A stretch of 64,000 bases of DNA. Source: Pontiella desulfatans (lineage in GTDB: Bacteria > Verrucomicrobiota > Kiritimatiellia > Kiritimatiellales > Pontiellaceae). Positions 626-34,494 of this stretch are shown here, piece after piece; the stretch's first letter is position 1, and the number at the start of each line of letters is the position of its first letter. The translations under genes and the position numbers were made by a program. Below the pieces are notes generated by a model. The model ran no database searches and was not told the origin of the DNA. It saw only the letters and a list, made by a program, of their open reading frames with translations. The stretch spans positions 4,092,001 through 4,156,000 of the forward strand of contig NZ_CAAHFG010000001.1 in assembly GCF_900890425.1 (NCBI RefSeq). Reading direction: 5' to 3'.

Positions 626-2563
626 CTAGTCGACCAACCGGGCTTCGAGTTCGGCGATGCGTTTTTCCTGCTTGATGGTGTAGAGCGTGAGTTCCTCGAT
701 CTTTTCCATCATGCGCTTTTGCATTTGCCCGATCGACAGGCCTTCTTCCGCAACAATCTCGGCGGAGGGGATGCCCGGCAGGCGCTTGTTGGCCTTGATG
801 TGCTCCTCGACTTCCGCCAGGGAACGCAGGTTGTAGTCCGGTTCGAAGACATAGTCCGGCCAGCTGCCCGAATCCTGCACCAGCACCTCTTCGCAGGCAA
901 TCTGCCCATCCACGGAAAGCTCATAGCCGCTTGCCCGCGTGCGGGTGTTGATCGTCACGAAATCGCCACCGATAGCGACCTCCATCGCGACAGCGTTTTC
1001 GTTCGTCGAGTCCGAGCTGAATACGAATGAGTCCTTGGTGTCATCATAGAACATTCCCCAGCCTGGATAGGTCGGTGAGTGGGACGCAACGGCCCGGGGA
1101 GCATTAAAGGTACCGGACTCATTGATATACAGCATGGGATCGGTGCTGTTCGGGAAACCGACCGAACCATTGACCGTTAACTCGGTAAAGGTTGACGCCG
1201 TACCGATGCCCACCTGTCCACTGTCATTGGCCACCAGGGCGGTTGTGAAGTCCGGATACAGGATAATGGAACCTGGCTGATCGGTGCCGATATACAAGTC
1301 ATCGTTGTAGGCTTGGCTCCACGCCTTCCGATCCCCACCACCATGCATTTCGAGAATAGGATTCGAAGGTGCATGAAGTTCCAAGACGGTCAGTGAGTTG
1401 GAGATCACCACCAGGCCATCGATAGACGCGTCTCCAGCGATAGCCATGTTGCCATCGACAGCAACGCCGCCCTCGAACGAACCGGCCAGGTTTTCCGCAC
1501 CGTTTTCGGCCCGGGCATAGAGCGCAATGTTTTGCGTTCCGGCACCGTCGGCCACGAACGCGGCGCCATAGTTGACGTTGCCGGAATCCTTGTTCCAACC
1601 CGCAACGGCGGCCCCGTCGCTACCCAGGTCGTGCTTGATGCCGACCACACCGGCATTGACGACCGTGCTGACGGGAAAACTAACGGGCGCCAAGGTTGGA
1701 CTTAAGACGCCCAGCAAACCTTCGGCATACACACTGCCGCCAGACCCATCTGCTCCCCGCACGGCACCATGTCCGCCAGTGTACTGCTGCACGTTCAGGC
1801 CATGGCCGTCCGGATCGGTATACTGCCCCAGCGCCACATCGCCACTGCGGTAGATCGAACCGCTTAGACCGCTTCCTAGGAAGTAGGCCCAATCGCCGTC
1901 GTCCACCAACGGTGAAAGATCAACGTTCAGCGTTCCGCCGGCATCCGTGATGCCCAGCGTGCTACCGGTTAATCCGGCGCTGAAGTTAAGTTCGTTAAAG
2001 GCACTCGCATCGGCATCGTTCACCAGCGCGGCCAGGTTCACGCTCTTTGTTCCGCCGGCATCCGTGACTTGCAGCGTGGTGCCCGCAAGCCCGACGCTGG
2101 TGTTCAGCTCGTTGGCGGGATTCGAATCCGCATCGTTGATGCCACCAGCCACGCTGGCCGCGATTGTTGCGCGGACGGCATACGGAGCCGAAGTGAACTT
2201 GGTGCGCGGCGCGAGCGTCGTGAATCCACCGCCGCCATTGGTCTGCACCCCGATTTCCAACCACCGGTCCGCGCCGTTGAAAACAGCACCGAAATCCAGT
2301 TCGGTGGAAAACAAGCCGCCATCCACGGGAAGGCCGATTTGATTGAGGGTGCCTCCAACCTGCCCACCTCCAACGGACGAATCCCAAACCTTGAATTGAA
2401 GATCATAGCTACCATCCGCCGGAAAACCGACGTCGTCGAGTTGGCCTTGGTAGGTGAACGCCGTGCCTTGCGCATAAACGCAGGTGCCCGCAAACAGTGC
2501 GGCCGTTGCAACGATTGCTGATTTGAATCCGCTCCGGATTCCATCTTGAACTCTAGTACTCAT
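626..2563 (-). CDS. Secreted tail-fibre-like protein, shared N-terminal module, S74-related C-terminal segment
   Basis: A 645-residue secreted protein. A signal peptide ends near VYA-Q (about residue 32). Then comes the QGTAFTYQGQLDD module (about residues 33-135) shared with the genes at 2979 and 6963. The centre is Gly/Ala/Asp-rich beta sequence with repeated blocks of the form N-x-S-x-G-L-x-G-x-T-L. The C-terminus contains DYNLRSLAEVEEHIKANK and a LPGIPSA segment, then a coiled coil. This end is common in Bacteroidetes-type tail-fibre proteins and is related to the S74 chaperone domain, but it lacks the autocleavage Ser/Lys dyad. I chose ATG 2563 because GGGAGG lies 7 nt upstream; a TTG at 2569 is in frame. 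Role inferred: trimeric surface or adhesive fibre. Confidence 0.8.
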   Translation of the reverse strand: MSTRVQDGIRSGFKSAIVATAALFAGTCVYAQGTAFTYQGQLDDVGFPADGSYDLQFKVWDSSVGGGQVGGTLNQIGLPVDGGLFSTELDFGAVFNGADRWLEIGVQTNGGGGFTTLAPRTKFTSAPYAVRATIAASVAGGINDADSNPANELNTSVGLAGTTLQVTDAGGTKSVNLAALVNDADASAFNELNFSAGLTGSTLGITDAGGTLNVDLSPLVDDGDWAYFLGSGLSGSIYRSGDVALGQYTDPDGHGLNVQQYTGGHGAVRGADGSGGSVYAEGLLGVLSPTLAPVSFPVSTVVNAGVVGIKHDLGSDGAAVAGWNKDSGNVNYGAAFVADGAGTQNIALYARAENGAENLAGSFEGGVAVDGNMAIAGDASIDGLVVISNSLTVLELHAPSNPILEMHGGGDRKAWSQAYNDDLYIGTDQPGSIILYPDFTTALVANDSGQVGIGTASTFTELTVNGSVGFPNSTDPMLYINESGTFNAPRAVASHSPTYPGWGMFYDDTKDSFVFSSDSTNENAVAMEVAIGGDFVTINTRTRASGYELSVDGQIACEEVLVQDSGSWPDYVFEPDYNLRSLAEVEEHIKANKRLPGIPSAEIVAEEGLSIGQMQKRMMEKIEELTLYTIKQEKRIAELEARLVD

Positions 2564-2608
2564 TATCAACCCTCCCTTAGGTGATAACTCAAGTTTACCG
2601 ACTCATGA

Positions 2609-2627
2609 CACAGGCTGACGCCTGCAC
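2609..2627 (-). promoter_or_regulatory. Conserved leader inverted repeat, copy 1
   Basis: CAGGC-TGAC-GCCTG dyad ending 46 nt before the ATG at 2563. The same motif sits 45 nt before the start codons of the two paralogous fibre genes (5039-5057 and 9155-9173). The constant spacing points to a shared regulatory or mRNA-leader function; which one is not known. Confidence 0.55.
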
Positions 2628-2862
2628 TCGTGGAAGCATTGGGCATGGCTTGCCTACCGATGTGAACCTTTGAACAGAGCTCAAAATTTCGGTTAAAAAA
2701 AGGCCCTTTTCTTCCGATCAACGGGAGGAGCATTACGCCTTTGTTTACATCTTGTCTAATTAAAATAATTTATTTTTACATAAGATATACGCACTCAATT
2801 ATAATTATTAAAAAAATGCACGGGATTCCAAAAGCGCTTTCCATCCCCCCTTGTTTTAAACG

Positions 2863-2899
2863 AAAAAAAGGGCGGCGATCGCAACGATAGCCGCCCTTT
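2863..2899 (-). terminator. Rho-independent terminator of the 2979-4994 gene
   Basis: Read on the minus strand, a perfect 10-bp stem (AAAGGGCGGC / GCCGCCCTTT) with a 13-nt loop is followed by a run of seven T in total. It lies 80 nt past the stop codon of the fibre gene at 2979. Confidence 0.85.
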
Positions 2900-2978
2900 C
2901 CAAACCATACCCACCCTGTTTCACACGCCCAGAACGCCAACGGCCAGTTGTCGCCTGGCGGCAGAAAAAGCACCCGGC

Positions 2979-4994
2979 CTAGGGTTTCCCGATAGGCTCC
3001 AAAATCATTTCCGCACCGAGGGCATGAACCGCTCGCTTGAGTTCAGCCAGCTCCCGTTCCATCCGCAGAATTTGCGCATCCTTTTGTTCCAACTTACGGT
3101 TCAGCCCCTGGATAGCGGCCAAGGTTATGCCATTGGCATCGCTTGCATTGATATGTAGGCCATCCTCGCCCAGGCCGAATGCGGCCCGGAAATCCTGGGC
3201 CATCGGCCCCACGTGCCTAATGCCGGGATCCTGCGACACAACATTCCACTCCGACACCGGCAAGTCCGCTACCTTTTGCAGAATCTCCACCGGATCGATC
3301 GGACGGAAATTTTCCTTGAGGTTGCGATCACTCGTCCAGCTCCAGGCCAGTCCGCCGGCCGGCAAATAAACGGTAAGGGTTGGCGTACCCGTTCCATCCA
3401 CCGCAGTGATGAAACGAACACCGCCGGTGGTGCGGGCCGCAAATTCGTTATTCGCGGTCGAATAGAAGGGTACACTTTGATAGTCGGCCCAGACGAATGA
3501 GCCCTCGTGAAGGGCTTTGGCATAGTTTCCCGCCGCAAAGCTGCATATGCCCCCCGCCGCATTCCCGGTTCCGCCGGGCACCGTCGCGAAGCTGTTGGTG
3601 GCCTGGTTGTCCCAGCCCCCGCCGACCACCGCCGCGTTGCGGGTTGCTTCGTTCCAAACGCCTCCCCCAACCGTCGTGTAGTCGTTGGATGCAACATTGG
3701 CCGAGCCTCCACCAATAAAGCTGCACGTACCTGCAGCGACATTGCCAATGCCCCCGCCGATCGTCGCATAGTAGAGCGCTTCGTTTCGCTCACCCCCCCC
3801 AACGGTTGCGTTGTCGCCCGATGCAGAATTTTCCTTGCCACCGGCAACAGAAGAGAAACTCCCCACTGCGGCATTTTCCCTCCCCCCGCCAACGTGCGCT
3901 TCAAATCCCGAGGCCGTGTTCAGATGCCCCCCGCCCACCACGGCCGAAGAACCCGAAGCAACATTCATTGCCCCGCCACCAACCGTTGCCGATGACCTGT
4001 CGGCCTTGTTCGACCAGCCTCCGCCCACTGTGGAGTATATCCAACCGGCACTGTTTTCCTGCCCGCCTCCCACAACCGAGGATTCGCCGTCTGCACGGTT
4101 CATGTTGCCCCCTCCCATGGCCGCATATGCGCCATCGGCCAGGTTGGCAAATCCGCCACCCACCGCACCATGGCTTCCGTTTGCCCGGTTATTCTTTCCT
4201 CCGCCGATCGCGGCGGCAGTGCCATTGGCCGTATTGGCCTCCCCTCCGGCGATCGTTGCCATCGAACCAAACAGCGTGTGGCCTTGTCCCGTTTTCAAGC
4301 GCCCGGCTTTGAGGTCGCCGCCAACAATCTTATCCCCCAGAATGGCCGCATCCGCATGAATGTGGCCATCAGAGATGGCCCAACTCCCGATTTCGGATGC
4401 ACCGACTGCACCCGAAGCAATTTCGGAAGCCCCCACGGATCCCGCCTGAAGATCGTCAGCCGTCAGACTGTTGTCGACAACCTCCGACGAGCCGACGGAG
4501 TTTGGCCCTAGATCCGACGATGTAAGGCTGTTGTTGACCACTTCCGAGGAGCTAATCGAATTTGCAGGATCGCTTGCCGCGGCCTGTGCCGAGAGCGCCG
4601 CAATGGCATAGGGAGTCGAGGTGAACCTGGTGCGCGGCACCAAGGTGGCGAATCCGCCACCGCCGTTGGTCTGCACGCCGATCTCCAACCAACGGTCAGC
4701 TCCCGTGAAGATGCCCGACCCAAAATCAAGCTCCAGCGCAAACAGGCCGCCCTCAACCGGCATGCCGATGGCGGTTTGGGTGGAACCAACCTGCGATCCT
4801 CCCGCCGAAGCCGTCCATACCTTGAACTGCATATCGTAGGAACCGTCGGCCGCATGGCCGCCATCGTCGAGTTGCCCCTGGTAGGTGAATGCCGTGCCTT
4901 GCGCGAGCGCGCCGGTTCCCGCACACAATGCGAGTGCGGTGGTGATTGCAAACAGGAATCCGGAACGGATTCCCCGCTGACTTGCCTTTTTCAT
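2979..4994 (-). CDS. Secreted trimeric fibre with YadA-like head repeats and S74 autoprocessing domain
   Basis: A 671-residue secreted protein. The signal peptide ends near ALA-Q, followed by the N-terminal module shared with the genes at 626 and 6963. After a Ser/Asn-rich linker come about 15 repeats of roughly 15-16 residues with core x-V-G-G-G-x-x-N-x-A-x-G, the pattern of YadA/Hep_Hag left-handed beta-roll heads. The C-terminus is a Peptidase_S74 intramolecular chaperone: SDRNLKENF with Ser555 and Lys560. The +5 spacing matches the self-cleaving dyad of phage endosialidase tails. A coiled coil ends the protein. ATG 4994 is preceded by GGAGGGCAGAA; a longer frame to 5021 lacks such a site. 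Expected behaviour, from the families: trimerise, fold, release the chaperone. Surface location is inferred. Confidence 0.85.
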   Translation of the reverse strand: MKKASQRGIRSGFLFAITTALALCAGTGALAQGTAFTYQGQLDDGGHAADGSYDMQFKVWTASAGGSQVGSTQTAIGMPVEGGLFALELDFGSGIFTGADRWLEIGVQTNGGGGFATLVPRTRFTSTPYAIAALSAQAAASDPANSISSSEVVNNSLTSSDLGPNSVGSSEVVDNSLTADDLQAGSVGASEIASGAVGASEIGSWAISDGHIHADAAILGDKIVGGDLKAGRLKTGQGHTLFGSMATIAGGEANTANGTAAAIGGGKNNRANGSHGAVGGGFANLADGAYAAMGGGNMNRADGESSVVGGGQENSAGWIYSTVGGGWSNKADRSSATVGGGAMNVASGSSAVVGGGHLNTASGFEAHVGGGRENAAVGSFSSVAGGKENSASGDNATVGGGERNEALYYATIGGGIGNVAAGTCSFIGGGSANVASNDYTTVGGGVWNEATRNAAVVGGGWDNQATNSFATVPGGTGNAAGGICSFAAGNYAKALHEGSFVWADYQSVPFYSTANNEFAARTTGGVRFITAVDGTGTPTLTVYLPAGGLAWSWTSDRNLKENFRPIDPVEILQKVADLPVSEWNVVSQDPGIRHVGPMAQDFRAAFGLGEDGLHINASDANGITLAAIQGLNRKLEQKDAQILRMERELAELKRAVHALGAEMILEPIGKP

Positions 4995-5038
4995 TTTCTG
5001 CCCTCCCGTATCCAGCAGCACTGCGGATTAACCCTATC

Positions 5039-5057
5039 GCACAGGCGCAATGCCTGT
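5039..5057 (-). promoter_or_regulatory. Conserved leader inverted repeat, copy 2
   Basis: Dyad ACAGGC-GCAAT-GCCTGT with 6-bp arms, ending 45 nt before the ATG at 4994. It matches the elements at 2609-2627 and 9155-9173 in sequence and position. A GC-rich dyad (arms CGGGCGC, 5123-5147) further upstream may end transcription of the 5161-5580 gene. Confidence 0.6.
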
Positions 5058-5160
5058 ATATTCCGGAACCGGAAAACAGCACCGGCCCCTATTTCCCATC
5101 GCGTTCGCTCAACATGGGGCTCCGGGCGCACCGGCATGGCGCGCCCGAAATTCCACTGTT

Positions 5161-5580
5161 TTAAAGCTCCCTCAGCCGGTAGAACAGGGCCGCCTCGGTT
5201 GCGGGAATCGAAACCGGATTGGTTGATCCGCTGGCGGAATCCACCCAGTTGCTTTGCAGGTTGAAGGTTTCCTGCAGCACCCAGTTGGGATCGGCCGGAT
5301 ACCACGACACCTCGACGCTCGCCACGCCGTCCACGGCAATGGTTAACCATGGCGCACCGGCCACCTGCACGGCCTGCGGCACCCAGAAACCGCCGCGGAC
5401 GGCGTAGTTGCCGCCATCCATGTTGCCGGCGTCGGGCTGGCCGATGGTGCCGCGCAGCGCGTAGCTTCCGCCGGACATCGCCCCGCCACCGCCATCGAGG
5501 GTCGACCAATCGATGGAGTATTGCGCCAACGCCACCAATGCGGTTGAGATGATGGCGATTGCTAGAGTTTGTTTTTTCAT
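5161..5580 (-). CDS. Small secreted protein of unknown function
   Basis: 139 residues with a signal peptide (MKKQTLAIAIISTALVALAQ). Next is a short Gly-rich repeat region: two copies of G-G-x-Y-A-x-R-G around a GTIGQPDAG motif, ending G-G-F-W. Similar short secreted proteins (YSIDW...GGG...GTIGQPDAG...GGFW) recur in PVC and other large-secretome bacteria, without known function. The C-terminal half is a beta-rich domain ending in a FYRL segment. The start codon overlaps the stop of the upstream metallopeptidase gene by 4 nt (ATGA), so the two are translationally coupled and probably exported together. Confidence 0.75.
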   Translation of the reverse strand: MKKQTLAIAIISTALVALAQYSIDWSTLDGGGGAMSGGSYALRGTIGQPDAGNMDGGNYAVRGGFWVPQAVQVAGAPWLTIAVDGVASVEVSWYPADPNWVLQETFNLQSNWVDSASGSTNPVSIPATEAALFYRLREL

Positions 5581-6947
5581 GGCTGTTCCTCCTCGGCTTC
5601 CGCCGTCCTCTCCTTCTCGCGTTCGAGTTTCCTGGCCTTGAGTACTTTCATTTTCTCGGCCTTCTTCCCGAAGCGATTCTTCAGGCCGGGTTGATCGGAC
5701 TCGGCGGCCGCCTTGGCATAGAAGGTTTCGGCTTCGTCGAATTCCTCCTTGGCCTTAAGCCGGGCCGCAATCTCGATCAACAAGGCATGGCGGTCCTTGC
5801 CCTTGGCAAGCTCCGCCGCCCGGCGGATCGCGGCCAATGATCCTTCGTCGTCGCCTTCGCGCGTCAGCCGCTGCGCCAGGGCCACCTGCACCGCCACCGC
5901 CGTGTTGGTGGAGTTTTCCAGGTTATGCCCCAACTCGTAATCCCGCTCCTTTCCCTGGATGGTGGAGGAGCCTTGGCGGGTGATCAGATCCGTGTTGGTA
6001 TCGATCACCGATGCCGGGTCGTCGTGGGAGCCGCTGGCCATCAGCACCAGCGTCCGGTTGTTGGCTTGCCCGGCACTGATGGCCGACTGGATGGTGGGAT
6101 ATGGATTGTCCCACGACCCATTCGCCCCCGTCGCCGTCGCCCCGTCCTTGATGTAGACCGGCGTGCCGGTCAGCAACCAGTTGCGGTCGTCATAGGTCTG
6201 GTCGCTCATGCGGTTGTTTTGCTGCGGGGTGATGATGTGGGTGTTGTCCACGTCGTGGTACGACATGAGGTTTTCCCAGGTGTTGTCCACCAAGGCCTTC
6301 TGCGCCGCCGAGCAATCGTCGTAATTCAACGCGTATGAATTCTGCGCAATTTGATCCCGGGTCCAGTTCTGGTTATCGGGCAAGGTGTCGGTGCAGCCAT
6401 CCCCGTTCGGCAAGGTGCTGGAATGGGTATGGTACAGGTTCACGCTATGCCCGGTTTCATGCAACATGAGCGGATCGTATGCGTACTGGTTGAACAGCAC
6501 GATGTTGTTGTTCGGCGGGAAGTCGGATATGGCGCTATAACCCACATCGTTCCCGTTGATATACATGTTGATGGCATCGGTTCTCCAATGCCATGTGGTC
6601 GGGTCGGCAATGGCCGCGTCGCGAATCGCATCGCGGTTGGCCCCGTTGTTGCCACCCGATGGAAGATTGTAGAATTCCTCTTCCCCGAACACCTCGTTGA
6701 TGCCCAGCAACTGGAATTTGTATTCCGTGCCGTTCTCGGCGAGGATCTCGTTGGCCCGCGTCACTTGGTCGTTCACCTCGGCATCGGTGTTGAGGTCGCC
6801 CGTGGCGGGGCGGTTGTCCGATGCGTCGAGGATAAAGTTGACCGAGACCCGAATGGGCAGTTCAAGAGCGCAAACCTGCCGAACTGGTATGGCTGCAATC
6901 AGCAGCAGGCAGAGCAGCCGCGCTATGCTATTTGTGCATGTTTTCAT
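5577..6947 (-). CDS. Secreted metzincin-type (pappalysin-like) metallopeptidase
   Basis: 456 residues with a signal peptide ending near VCALE. The zinc site is HETGHSVNLYH: His163, Glu164, His167 and His173. It follows the metzincin HExxHxxGxxH pattern but has Asn instead of the usual Gly at the eighth position. A Met-turn follows (NLMSYHD). Around the site the layout matches M43 pappalysin-like enzymes. After the catalytic domain comes VYIKDGATATG...NPYPTIQ, the usual opening of a parallel beta-helix domain, but it is cut short. A charged alpha-helical, TPR-like tail rich in Lys/Glu follows. The gene starts 15 bp after the fibre gene at 6963 and overlaps the small secreted gene downstream, so the three form an operon. 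Substrate unknown. Confidence 0.8.
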   Translation of the reverse strand: MKTCTNSIARLLCLLLIAAIPVRQVCALELPIRVSVNFILDASDNRPATGDLNTDAEVNDQVTRANEILAENGTEYKFQLLGINEVFGEEEFYNLPSGGNNGANRDAIRDAAIADPTTWHWRTDAINMYINGNDVGYSAISDFPPNNNIVLFNQYAYDPLMLHETGHSVNLYHTHSSTLPNGDGCTDTLPDNQNWTRDQIAQNSYALNYDDCSAAQKALVDNTWENLMSYHDVDNTHIITPQQNNRMSDQTYDDRNWLLTGTPVYIKDGATATGANGSWDNPYPTIQSAISAGQANNRTLVLMASGSHDDPASVIDTNTDLITRQGSSTIQGKERDYELGHNLENSTNTAVAVQVALAQRLTREGDDEGSLAAIRRAAELAKGKDRHALLIEIAARLKAKEEFDEAETFYAKAAAESDQPGLKNRFGKKAEKMKVLKARKLEREKERTAEAEEEQP

Positions 6948-6962
6948 GGCGTGTCGCTCCGG

Positions 6963-9110
6963 TTAATGCAACGAGACCAAAACGAGAACCAGCCCTTGCC
7001 CGGATTCCAGCCCGGTCATGGCCTTGCCGATGATGGCGCCATGCGCGCGGGAAGGGTCGTCCACCTTCATGCCGTGCCCTGGAAGATCCGAAGTCGTGAT
7101 GAGGTCGCCGGGTTCGATGGCCGCTTGGCTGGCATCGGCCTTGCAGTAGACGCGGCCGGTCAGCGCCACGGGATATTCACCGCTCGCCACCGTCCCCTCC
7201 TGCTGCATCAGCAACCCCGGCTTCACGCCGTCCGCTCCGCTAACGATGCCGGCCACCGTGCGGTCGTAGGCCTTGCCGCTGACCACCAGTTTGCCCGGAT
7301 TATCCGCATCGATGCAGACGATCATGCCGGGCTCCACCTTGCTCGAATGCCCGTCGATGTCGAACTGCTCCGAGAGATCGGAACCGCCGTTTATTTGGAG
7401 TTCGTCCGTAATAACCCGCCCGTCGCCGGTGCCCAAATAATCTCCATACAGCAAGACCCGGCTGGAACCGGCGGCATTTTCCAGCCGCATGTATCCTCCG
7501 TCATAGACGTCGCCACTAATATAGATACTGCTGTTTCCGGTATCATTATAATAGTACGAGTAGCCGTAGGTGGATGCATAGGTATACTGACGGAGGTCGC
7601 CATCGGTGTTGTATAGGTAAACCGCTCCCGCGGTGTCGCCATTAATCATTACACTCTTGCTGCCATCGGTCGCGTAAATATCGATGTCGGTGTCGTATAG
7701 ATCAACATCGCCCTCCACCTCGAACTTCGCCGCGGTCGCCACGCGGCCGACGCCAACGCGTCCATCCGGATGGATGGTGAGGTCGTTCACCACGCCCGAT
7801 TCCGCTCCCGCGCTCATGGCAAGCACGTTGTCGGTTGCCCGTACATATAGCCATCCCGTGTAGGTTCCATTGTCTTTGAAGCTCAGGCCGGCGTTACCGC
7901 TGTCCGAGTCCAAAAAAATGAACGGATAGTCGTTGTTAATATAGAGATCCGCCGAGTTCCCTGCACTGGATAGAAGCAAGTCGCCCGTCATGGTATCTCC
8001 GGCCACCTCGACATAGCGGGCATCGACGCTGGTTAGGTTCAGGTCATCCGTTGTAAGCGAGCCATCCGCCACTGCGGCTGTGCCGATGTTGTTGAGACCG
8101 GAGCCGTTGCCGACGAAATACCCAGCCGTCAATCGATCGACGACATAAACATCGTCTTGATCCGTATCCACCCGGAGTGTGCTTTGGCCGATGTAGACAT
8201 CGCCGCCAAAGTCGTTCAGGTAAAGATCGGAAGGATTGGTTCCATTCCGTCCATGGAGTTCGTTGTTGTCCAATGTGAGATGGAATCCGGCAGAGTTGCC
8301 GATGTTCACGATGCCGTCCGTAGTTGAACTGATGTAGGCCGTTCCATACACATCCAGCACCGCGTCGGGGGTCGTTGTGTTTATACCGATCGTCGTACCG
8401 GAGTCGGTCATGGTACCCGAGGTCACCTTCGACAACGACCCGTTGTCGTTGGCCAGATCCACGGCATAGACGTTGGCATCGGCAATCTCGGCCGTGCCCA
8501 CTGCGCCTGCGGCAATTTCGGATGCACCGACGGCATCGGTGCCGATTTCGGAAGCATACACCGAGTTGGGCGCAAGATCCACCGCCTGCAAACTGTTGTC
8601 GATGACTTCCGACGTCCCGACGGAATTCGGCCCCAGGTCAGACGAGGTCAGGCTTTCGTTGACCACTTCCGAAGAGCCGATCGCTCCGGCTGGAACACCG
8701 GCTGCCGTGATGGCCTGGATGGCATAGGGGGTGGAGGTGAACTTGGTGCGCGGTGCAAGCGTGGTGAATCCACCGCCCCCATTCGTCTGCACCCCGATTT
8801 CCAACCAGCGGTCTGCTCCGGAGAATACGCTCGAACCAAAATCGAGCTGCACGGTGAAAAGGCCGCCGCCTACCGGGACGCCAACGTAGGTCGTCGGCCC
8901 CGCGAGCTGGGAACCCCCGGACGATGCATTCCAAACCGAGAAACGGATGTCGTAGTTACCGTTCGCCGGAACACCGGCATCGTCGAGCTGGCCTTGGTAG
9001 GTGAATGCCGTGCCTTGCGCGAATGCGTAGGTTCCCGCAAATAGTGCGAGTGTGGTGATGATTGTAAACAGGAATCCGGAACGGATTCCCCGATGTGTTG
9101 CCGTCTTCAT
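6963..9110 (-). CDS. Secreted tail-fibre-like protein with a distinct C-terminal domain
   Basis: 715 residues. Signal peptide, then the same QGTAFTYQGQLDD module as the genes at 626 and 2979. Next are short repeats of form S-S-E-V-x-x-x-S-L, then long beta-rich sequence dominated by D/Y/G/N. The C-terminal 150 residues differ from both paralogues. They contain GGSDLSEQFDI, a PGMIVCIDAD segment and GDLITTSDLPGHGMKV, ending in a hydrophobic LVLVLVSLH. This end is familiar from large PVC and Acidobacteria secreted proteins but has no assigned activity. ATG 9110 follows GGAGGGCAGA, the same ribosome-binding site as the 2979 gene; a longer frame to 9197 is disfavoured. First gene of the operon with the metallopeptidase at 5577. 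Confidence 0.8.
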   Translation of the reverse strand: MKTATHRGIRSGFLFTIITTLALFAGTYAFAQGTAFTYQGQLDDAGVPANGNYDIRFSVWNASSGGSQLAGPTTYVGVPVGGGLFTVQLDFGSSVFSGADRWLEIGVQTNGGGGFTTLAPRTKFTSTPYAIQAITAAGVPAGAIGSSEVVNESLTSSDLGPNSVGTSEVIDNSLQAVDLAPNSVYASEIGTDAVGASEIAAGAVGTAEIADANVYAVDLANDNGSLSKVTSGTMTDSGTTIGINTTTPDAVLDVYGTAYISSTTDGIVNIGNSAGFHLTLDNNELHGRNGTNPSDLYLNDFGGDVYIGQSTLRVDTDQDDVYVVDRLTAGYFVGNGSGLNNIGTAAVADGSLTTDDLNLTSVDARYVEVAGDTMTGDLLLSSAGNSADLYINNDYPFIFLDSDSGNAGLSFKDNGTYTGWLYVRATDNVLAMSAGAESGVVNDLTIHPDGRVGVGRVATAAKFEVEGDVDLYDTDIDIYATDGSKSVMINGDTAGAVYLYNTDGDLRQYTYASTYGYSYYYNDTGNSSIYISGDVYDGGYMRLENAAGSSRVLLYGDYLGTGDGRVITDELQINGGSDLSEQFDIDGHSSKVEPGMIVCIDADNPGKLVVSGKAYDRTVAGIVSGADGVKPGLLMQQEGTVASGEYPVALTGRVYCKADASQAAIEPGDLITTSDLPGHGMKVDDPSRAHGAIIGKAMTGLESGQGLVLVLVSLH

Positions 9111-9573
9111 TCTGCCCTCCCGTATGCCAGCAGTAATGCAGGTTAATTCATACGCACAGGCACCCTGCCTGCACTTTCCGGCATCGACAAACGGCAACGA
9201 ACCAGAACCAACCGGGCGACGGGCTGAGCGACCGTTCGGAATCCAGAGATTTCCGATCCGCTACCTTTCCGCTTCAGCCGTTGAGAACGGATACAACCCA
9301 GTCCACCGTTTGTCAAAACAATAAAGCCATGCAATTTAATTTCAATTTGACATCTTCTTTATCAAAAGAGTTGGAGCAAAGTTGCACCCTTCCGAAGTGT
9401 GTTCAATGCGTGGCAATGCTTGATGGTCCGCAACCGATCGCCCAGGCAACAGTCAGCCGCCGAATGGAGTGCCAACCGCGTCCAACCCCAAGCTTATTAA
9501 AACTAAAAAACAATTCCAATTTGATCACGCAAGACTTATCATCCCCGACAATTCAAGGAATAAGGAGTTGGTG
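9111..9573. other. Divergent intergenic region between fibre gene and subtilase
   Basis: A 463-bp spacer between two divergent secreted-protein genes. It carries leader copy 3 on the left. The middle (about 9315-9370) is AT-rich and could hold the promoters. AAGGAG at 9562-9567 is the ribosome-binding site of the subtilase gene. No further gene seen. Confidence 0.5.
9155..9173 (-). promoter_or_regulatory. Conserved leader inverted repeat, copy 3
   Basis: Dyad ACAGGC-ACCCT-GCCTGC ending 45 nt before the ATG at 9110, matching copies at 2609-2627 and 5039-5057. The sequence between dyad and start also retains GTTAATTC-like and GGGAGGGCAGA segments in common with copy 2. Confidence 0.6.
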
Positions 9574-30552: not shown

Positions 30553-30996
30553 CGAAGGCTCCTTTCGCGACGGGGGCGTCCACGCTCCTTGCGTTCAGCC
30601 CTTCCCGTCAGGTCAACGGTACTATGGCCTCTGCTGACTCCTTCGGGAGTAACGACGACATTGCTGCCGCCGCCGCTTTCCGTTGCCGGAACGCATATCC
30701 CGCAGGCCTCCCCGGATAAGAACACAGACTTCCGCTGCACAACCGCCGCATTTACCGTAGAGGTATTGCCCCGGACTTCGGCATGCTGGGCAACCTCATC
30801 CACCTCCTCAGCCTTATATGCGATTTCTGTTCGTCGGCTCACAGTTTTGATCTCCATCTTCCTCCCCACGATCCCTCGCGAGACCGCAGTTGATTTCATC
30901 TAGCGCTTCGGCTACCGTCGTTCCCAATGAAAGGAACAGCGGACAGCCGGGCAACGCGCAGGGGACTCGAACCCCATTAGTTTGTGTTCATGCCAG

Positions 30997-34084: not shown

Positions 34085-34494
34085 TGAACTAAGGGTCATC
34101 CAAGAGGTTCCGAATGGCGTTGGAAAAGGCTGAGAATACAAGGGTTTGATGCAGAAGATAACGAGCGGTTTTGGGGCGCGCGGTGGTTGCCCGCTCGGCG
34201 GGGCAGGCGGGACGCCTGCGGTACGGTGCCGATTCCTGTCTTGTGCGGGAGCGGGGACATTCCTGTCCCCGACGGGGGCAAGAAAGCCCCCGCTCCGTTG
34301 GAAGCACCCATGAGGCCGGATTCGGGCAGAAATATTTGAGGCAGAACGAATCGGTGCCGGGGATAGGGTCGGTCGGGGAACGGCCGCCCTCGGATGGAAG
34401 CTCGCCCTCCTCACAGGGGCTCAGGATTCATAAAGCTTAACTCGGGAATGGAACCTCGGTTGAAGACAGATGAATGCGTGGAGCAGGCGTGGGA
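34085..34494. other. Spacer at the right edge of the low-GC island
   Basis: Composition returns to high GC here. It holds GC-rich dyads (GGGGAC-ATTCCT-GTCCCC and GGGGGC-AAGAAA-GCCCCC near 34254-34293). No gene is supported on either strand. Confidence 0.55.

Follow-up and report, generated by a model that had tools for sequence, protein, structure and literature searches.

A candidate leader stem-loop maintained before three paralogous fibre-like genes of Pontiella desulfatans

Three fibre-like genes are encoded on the minus strand of the window, that is, the whole stretch of 64,000 nucleotides of Pontiella desulfatans DNA analysed here (Table 1). They have in common a signal peptide and a AQGTAFTYQGQL N-domain, with 66-67% identity to gene 1, and the closest named relatives of this N-domain are found in Pontiellaceae and other Verrucomicrobiota/Kiritimatiellota. 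Their passenger parts differ, the C-terminus of gene 2 being an intramolecular chaperone domain of the Peptidase_S74 type. A strong terminator hairpin with a U tract lies 3' of gene 2; gene 1 is therefore expected to be transcribed from a promoter of its own within the 300 nt upstream. A secreted metalloprotease-like gene carrying a HETGH motif, for which no Pfam match was obtained at E 0.001, lies between fibre gene 3 and fibre gene 2.

Table 1. Features of the fibre-like gene locus and related elements; coordinates are window positions
Feature	Position	Strand	Description
Fibre-like gene 1	626..2563	(-)	Signal peptide, AQGTAFTYQGQL N-domain, C-terminal coiled coil; ATG 2563
Second hairpin, gene 1	2525..2541	(-)	GAATCCG GAG CGGATTC, codons 8-13
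Shine-Dalgarno-like GGGAGGG, gene 1	2570..2576	(-)	From sequence
Leader hairpin, gene 1	2611..2624	(-)	CAGGC GTCA GCCTG, 4-nt loop
Terminator hairpin 3' of gene 2	2865..2901	(-)	With U tract, -24.1 kcal/mol
Fibre-like gene 2	2979..4994	(-)	Same N-domain as gene 1, GGG repeats, Peptidase_S74 chaperone domain; ATG 4994
Second hairpin, gene 2	4956..4972	(-)	GAATCCG TTC CGGATTC, codons 8-13
Shine-Dalgarno-like GGGAGGG, gene 2	5001..5007	(-)	From sequence
Leader hairpin, gene 2	5042..5056	(-)	CAGGC ATTGC GCCTG, 5-nt loop
Metalloprotease-like gene	5577-6947		Between fibre genes 3 and 2
Fibre-like gene 3	6963..9110	(-)	Same N-domain as gene 1, different passenger part; ATG 9110
Second hairpin, gene 3	9072..9088	(-)	GAATCCG TTC CGGATTC, codons 8-13
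Shine-Dalgarno-like GGGAGGG, gene 3	9115..9121	(-)	From sequence
Leader hairpin, gene 3	9157..9171	(-)	CAGGC AGGGT GCCTG, 5-nt loop
Group II intron domains	30598-30885	(-)	Rfam RF02001, RF01998
One CAGGCGGGACGCCTG repeat copy	34204-34218		Intergenic palindrome

Each of the three leaders contains, on the coding strand, a dyad with the core CAGGC-N4/5-GCCTG, in agreement with the first-pass annotation, which had placed three such dyads ahead of three paralogous fibre genes. The distance from dyad to ATG amounts to 47, 47 and 46 nt in genes 1, 2 and 3, respectively; the near-constant place noticed earlier is thus real and the coordinates given for it are correct but for the outermost two positions, while the spacings attached to it (46, 45 and 45 nt) were coordinate differences from a 19-nt version of the dyad, the outer two positions of which are not Watson-Crick complementary. 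In all three genes the Shine-Dalgarno-like GGGAGGG is found a few nt 5' of the ATG.

Dyads at this position are rare in the genome. In a 464-kb sample of it, in which 258 genes were called, a 5-bp G+C-rich dyad ends 43-47 nt before the start of only four, namely the three fibre-like genes and one other, which corresponds to about one in the 255 other sampled genes. The exact dyad occurs 127 times in the 8.66 Mb genome, approximately once per 68 kb, and 30 of these 127 occurrences belong to a single intergenic repeat (see below). That three paralogs have the dyad at the same position reflects common descent, selection or both, and not independent chance.

The distribution of the motif does not resemble that of a regulon. 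In combination with GGGAGG, the dyad is found genome-wide only in the three fibre leaders and at two unrelated places, which leaves the regulator site that had been listed among the early options without a regulon, and an exact-pattern search of the same genome for regulon members returned the three leaders, background and REP copies only. Two further paralogs of the N-domain, encoded on contig 4, are devoid of the leader dyad. Likewise, the CAGGC dyad is present at the same place in none of 83 leaders of homologous genes (from Verrucomicrobiota and this genome), a dyad of any kind being found there in 18 of the 83 vs 14.5 in shuffles, and no ortholog from another genome has it. A covariance model built on the entire leader yielded no further credible member in the genus and family (29 genomes), the order (43) and the class (346), its strong matches in the class being these three leaders only; the best outside match, which scores 25.8 bits (E 2.6e-4) and lies upstream of a desulfoferrodoxin-like gene in one of the 346 genomes, is interrupted in its stem, is expected by chance and was discarded. 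No Rfam family reached its gathering score in any of the leaders, the only hit in the window being the group II intron elsewhere. The leader dyad is a local feature of one gene group and not a regulon motif, and there is therefore no ground for presenting it as a new kind of regulator site. As a separate observation, near-identical copies of ACAGGCATYGTGCCTGT occur in a duplicated stretch on contig 1 (3739446-3739462) and contig 5 (168543-168559); their stem resembles that of gene 2, and their surroundings look unrelated.

The three genes are old paralogs, as judged from their four-fold sites, the pairwise identity of which is 51-61% and of which 20 of the 48 shared by all three (42%) are invariant. 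In the leader alignment, which around the loop depends on fixing the stems, invariant columns number 10/10 in the stem, 0/5 in the loop, 6/31 in the spacer and 7/8 in the Shine-Dalgarno block, which bears out the earlier remark that the leader diverges more around the dyads. The stem differs from loop and spacer taken together (6/36; Fisher p 2e-6) and from the four-fold sites (p 6e-4), p-values that are guides rather than proofs and somewhat flattering, for the stem block was chosen after inspection and from three sequences. No compensatory double change is seen in the stem among the three sequences, and upstream of the dyad gene 1 has no alignable block shared with genes 2 and 3. Neither random occurrence nor uniformly conserved leaders, each of which would speak for chance or recent duplication, was found; the proposal that a fixed distance suggests selection is thus supported, the duplication being old and the leaders unevenly conserved. 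Since an intact stem stands between a replaced loop and a diverged spacer in paralogs of this age, selection on the dyad appears more likely than inert duplication.

A repeat of the same genome offers another origin for the dyad. The intergenic palindrome CAGGCGGGACGCCTG, present in 30 exact copies, has the very stem CAGGC/GCCTG of the fibre dyads, is flanked by GGGG/GGAG before and CGGTACG after, and often forms facing pairs at a distance of about 35 nt. Palindromic repeats together with Y1 transposases form REP/RAYT systems (PMC3733652, PMC2817692), and 17 matches to Y1_Tnp over the Pfam cut-off are found in this genome, so that the stem identity and the transposase genes recall such a system. 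The dyad might accordingly be a functionless fossil of a REP-like repeat that preceded the ancestral gene and was duplicated along with it, a single ancestral insertion being enough for paralogous genes. Yet the loops of the fibre dyads (GTCA, ATTGC, AGGGT) differ from the GGGAC of the repeat, as do the flanks, in which GGTAC is absent; moreover, unlike the scattered REP copies, the strong matches to the leader model are confined to three leaders, at one position before paralogous genes. Neutral decay would also predict otherwise than a perfect stem among neighbouring sites at about 20% three-way identity (0.42^10 = 1.6e-4). A mere fossil is therefore unlikely, while an ancient REP origin, with the element kept later for its function, is possible.

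Whether the conserved dyad acts as RNA or as DNA can be addressed from its internal structure. As DNA, it would be the operator of a dimeric transcription factor co-regulating the three fibre genes, a notion consistent with its near-palindromic arms and its fixed distance to the gene, properties shared with palindromic operators which do not require RNA, and with three genes of one family making a plausible small regulon. However, the spacing of the half-sites is not constant, being N4 in gene 1 and N5 in genes 2 and 3; a change from 4 to 5 bp rotates the half-sites by about 36 degrees, which is unusual for dimeric operators and tolerated by RNA hairpins. Unlike in palindromic operators, the conserved bases on either side of the dyad (TR...TG) lack palindromic symmetry, and sites next to other genes of this genome do not exceed background. 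Nor are promoter hexamers around the dyad conserved: none stands at a fixed distance from it in the three leaders, and promoter-like matches are as frequent there as in shuffles. An overlap of the dyad with a promoter was rejected on the same grounds, the hexamers not being shared. In RNA, the loop of 4 or 5 nt is fully replaced in sequence while the stem is intact, and outer U-G and G/A-U (R-U) pairs extend the helix to 7 bp in the sense strand only. The predicted hairpin is more stable in sense than in antisense in all three genes (-10.4, -10.0 and -13.2 vs -7.8, -9.2 and -8.2) and has a predicted probability of 0.83-1.0 in 70-nt leader contexts of all three, falling for gene 2 to 0.12-0.24 when more upstream sequence is included (12-23% of the ensemble with 120-200 nt), where other structures compete. 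Loop length, the sense-only extension of the helix and the better folding of the sense strand favour an RNA hairpin, as modelled, over a DNA operator, which seems improbable. Among the three options put forward by the first-pass annotation (regulator site, promoter-linked motif and mRNA leader structure), the last is thus the one favoured, whereas a genome-wide regulator and conserved promoter hexamers find no support.

It is very improbable that gene conversion or module shuffling among tandem paralogs kept the leader and N-terminal segment alike with the hairpin itself unselected: the three genes do share their N-terminal module and differ in their passenger parts, but conversion would homogenise contiguous tracts, and the conserved blocks are short, broken by loop and spacer.

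A second hairpin, missed in the first pass, is present in the early coding region, where codons 8-13 encode GIRSGF in each gene. Its arms are identical in the three genes, while its loop is replaced at every position (TTC to GAG), both codons being synonymous. A 7-bp dyad at codons 8-13 is found in all three fibre-like genes vs 2 of 262 other sampled genes, and dyads of the GAATCCG type number only five genome-wide. This hairpin is taken as supporting evidence only, because much of its conservation could be due to constraint on the encoded amino acids. Given the size of the footprint of an initiating ribosome, the leader hairpin lies just upstream and the codon 8-13 hairpin just downstream of it.

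Other structures were considered for the leaders and set aside. A conserved hairpin sequestering GGGAGGG (RNAalifold; TTATCA/TGATAA in gene 1) was rejected, for the three leaders are predicted to fold differently and show only weak covariation, and so was an intrinsic terminator or attenuator, for the U tract is absent after the dyad. The predicted accessibility of GGGAGGG differs among the three leaders, and hence no common effect on translation is visible.

To sum up, the three fibre-like mRNAs may well carry the dyad in their 5' leader as a stem-loop kept by purifying selection, the case for and against this reading being about evenly balanced. The dyad would have been inherited with an ancestral module made of leader, signal peptide and N-domain, and purifying selection would maintain the stem-loop in each fibre leader. 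If transcribed and folded in vivo as predicted, the 7-bp helix would end some 46 nt 5' of the AUG, immediately beyond the footprint that an initiating ribosome usually occupies, with the codon 8-13 hairpin sitting just downstream of that footprint. Its role would likely be post-transcriptional, in that it may block nucleases entering at the 5' end, frame the ribosome-binding site, or both, the outcome being secreted fibre proteins made from long-lived, well-translated mRNAs. Along the same line, the two hairpins might form a two-part element flanking the initiating ribosome and used by a dedicated RNA-binding factor that co-controls surface-fibre mRNAs in this Kiritimatiellota lineage, an idea that is a long shot. 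Post-transcriptional control in Kiritimatiellota has seemingly been little explored, and a leader hairpin that outlasts deep paralog divergence provides a small, testable element.

Stabilising stem-loops are known in the 5'-UTR of mRNAs for abundant surface or secreted proteins, such as ompA and papA of E. coli and aprE of B. subtilis, in which a spacer that is single-stranded separates a stem-loop from a strong Shine-Dalgarno sequence and the exact loop sequence is irrelevant (PMC3997798, PMC7509114). These stabilisers are 5'-terminal, and the fibre dyads would have to lie at or near the transcript 5' end to be of the same kind. The fibre dyads display the same layout, a short stem-loop followed by a spacer and then by a strong Shine-Dalgarno sequence, and, as expected from ompA and aprE, the stem is conserved and the loop is free to vary, which suggests a leader element of an ordinary type, confined to one gene group.
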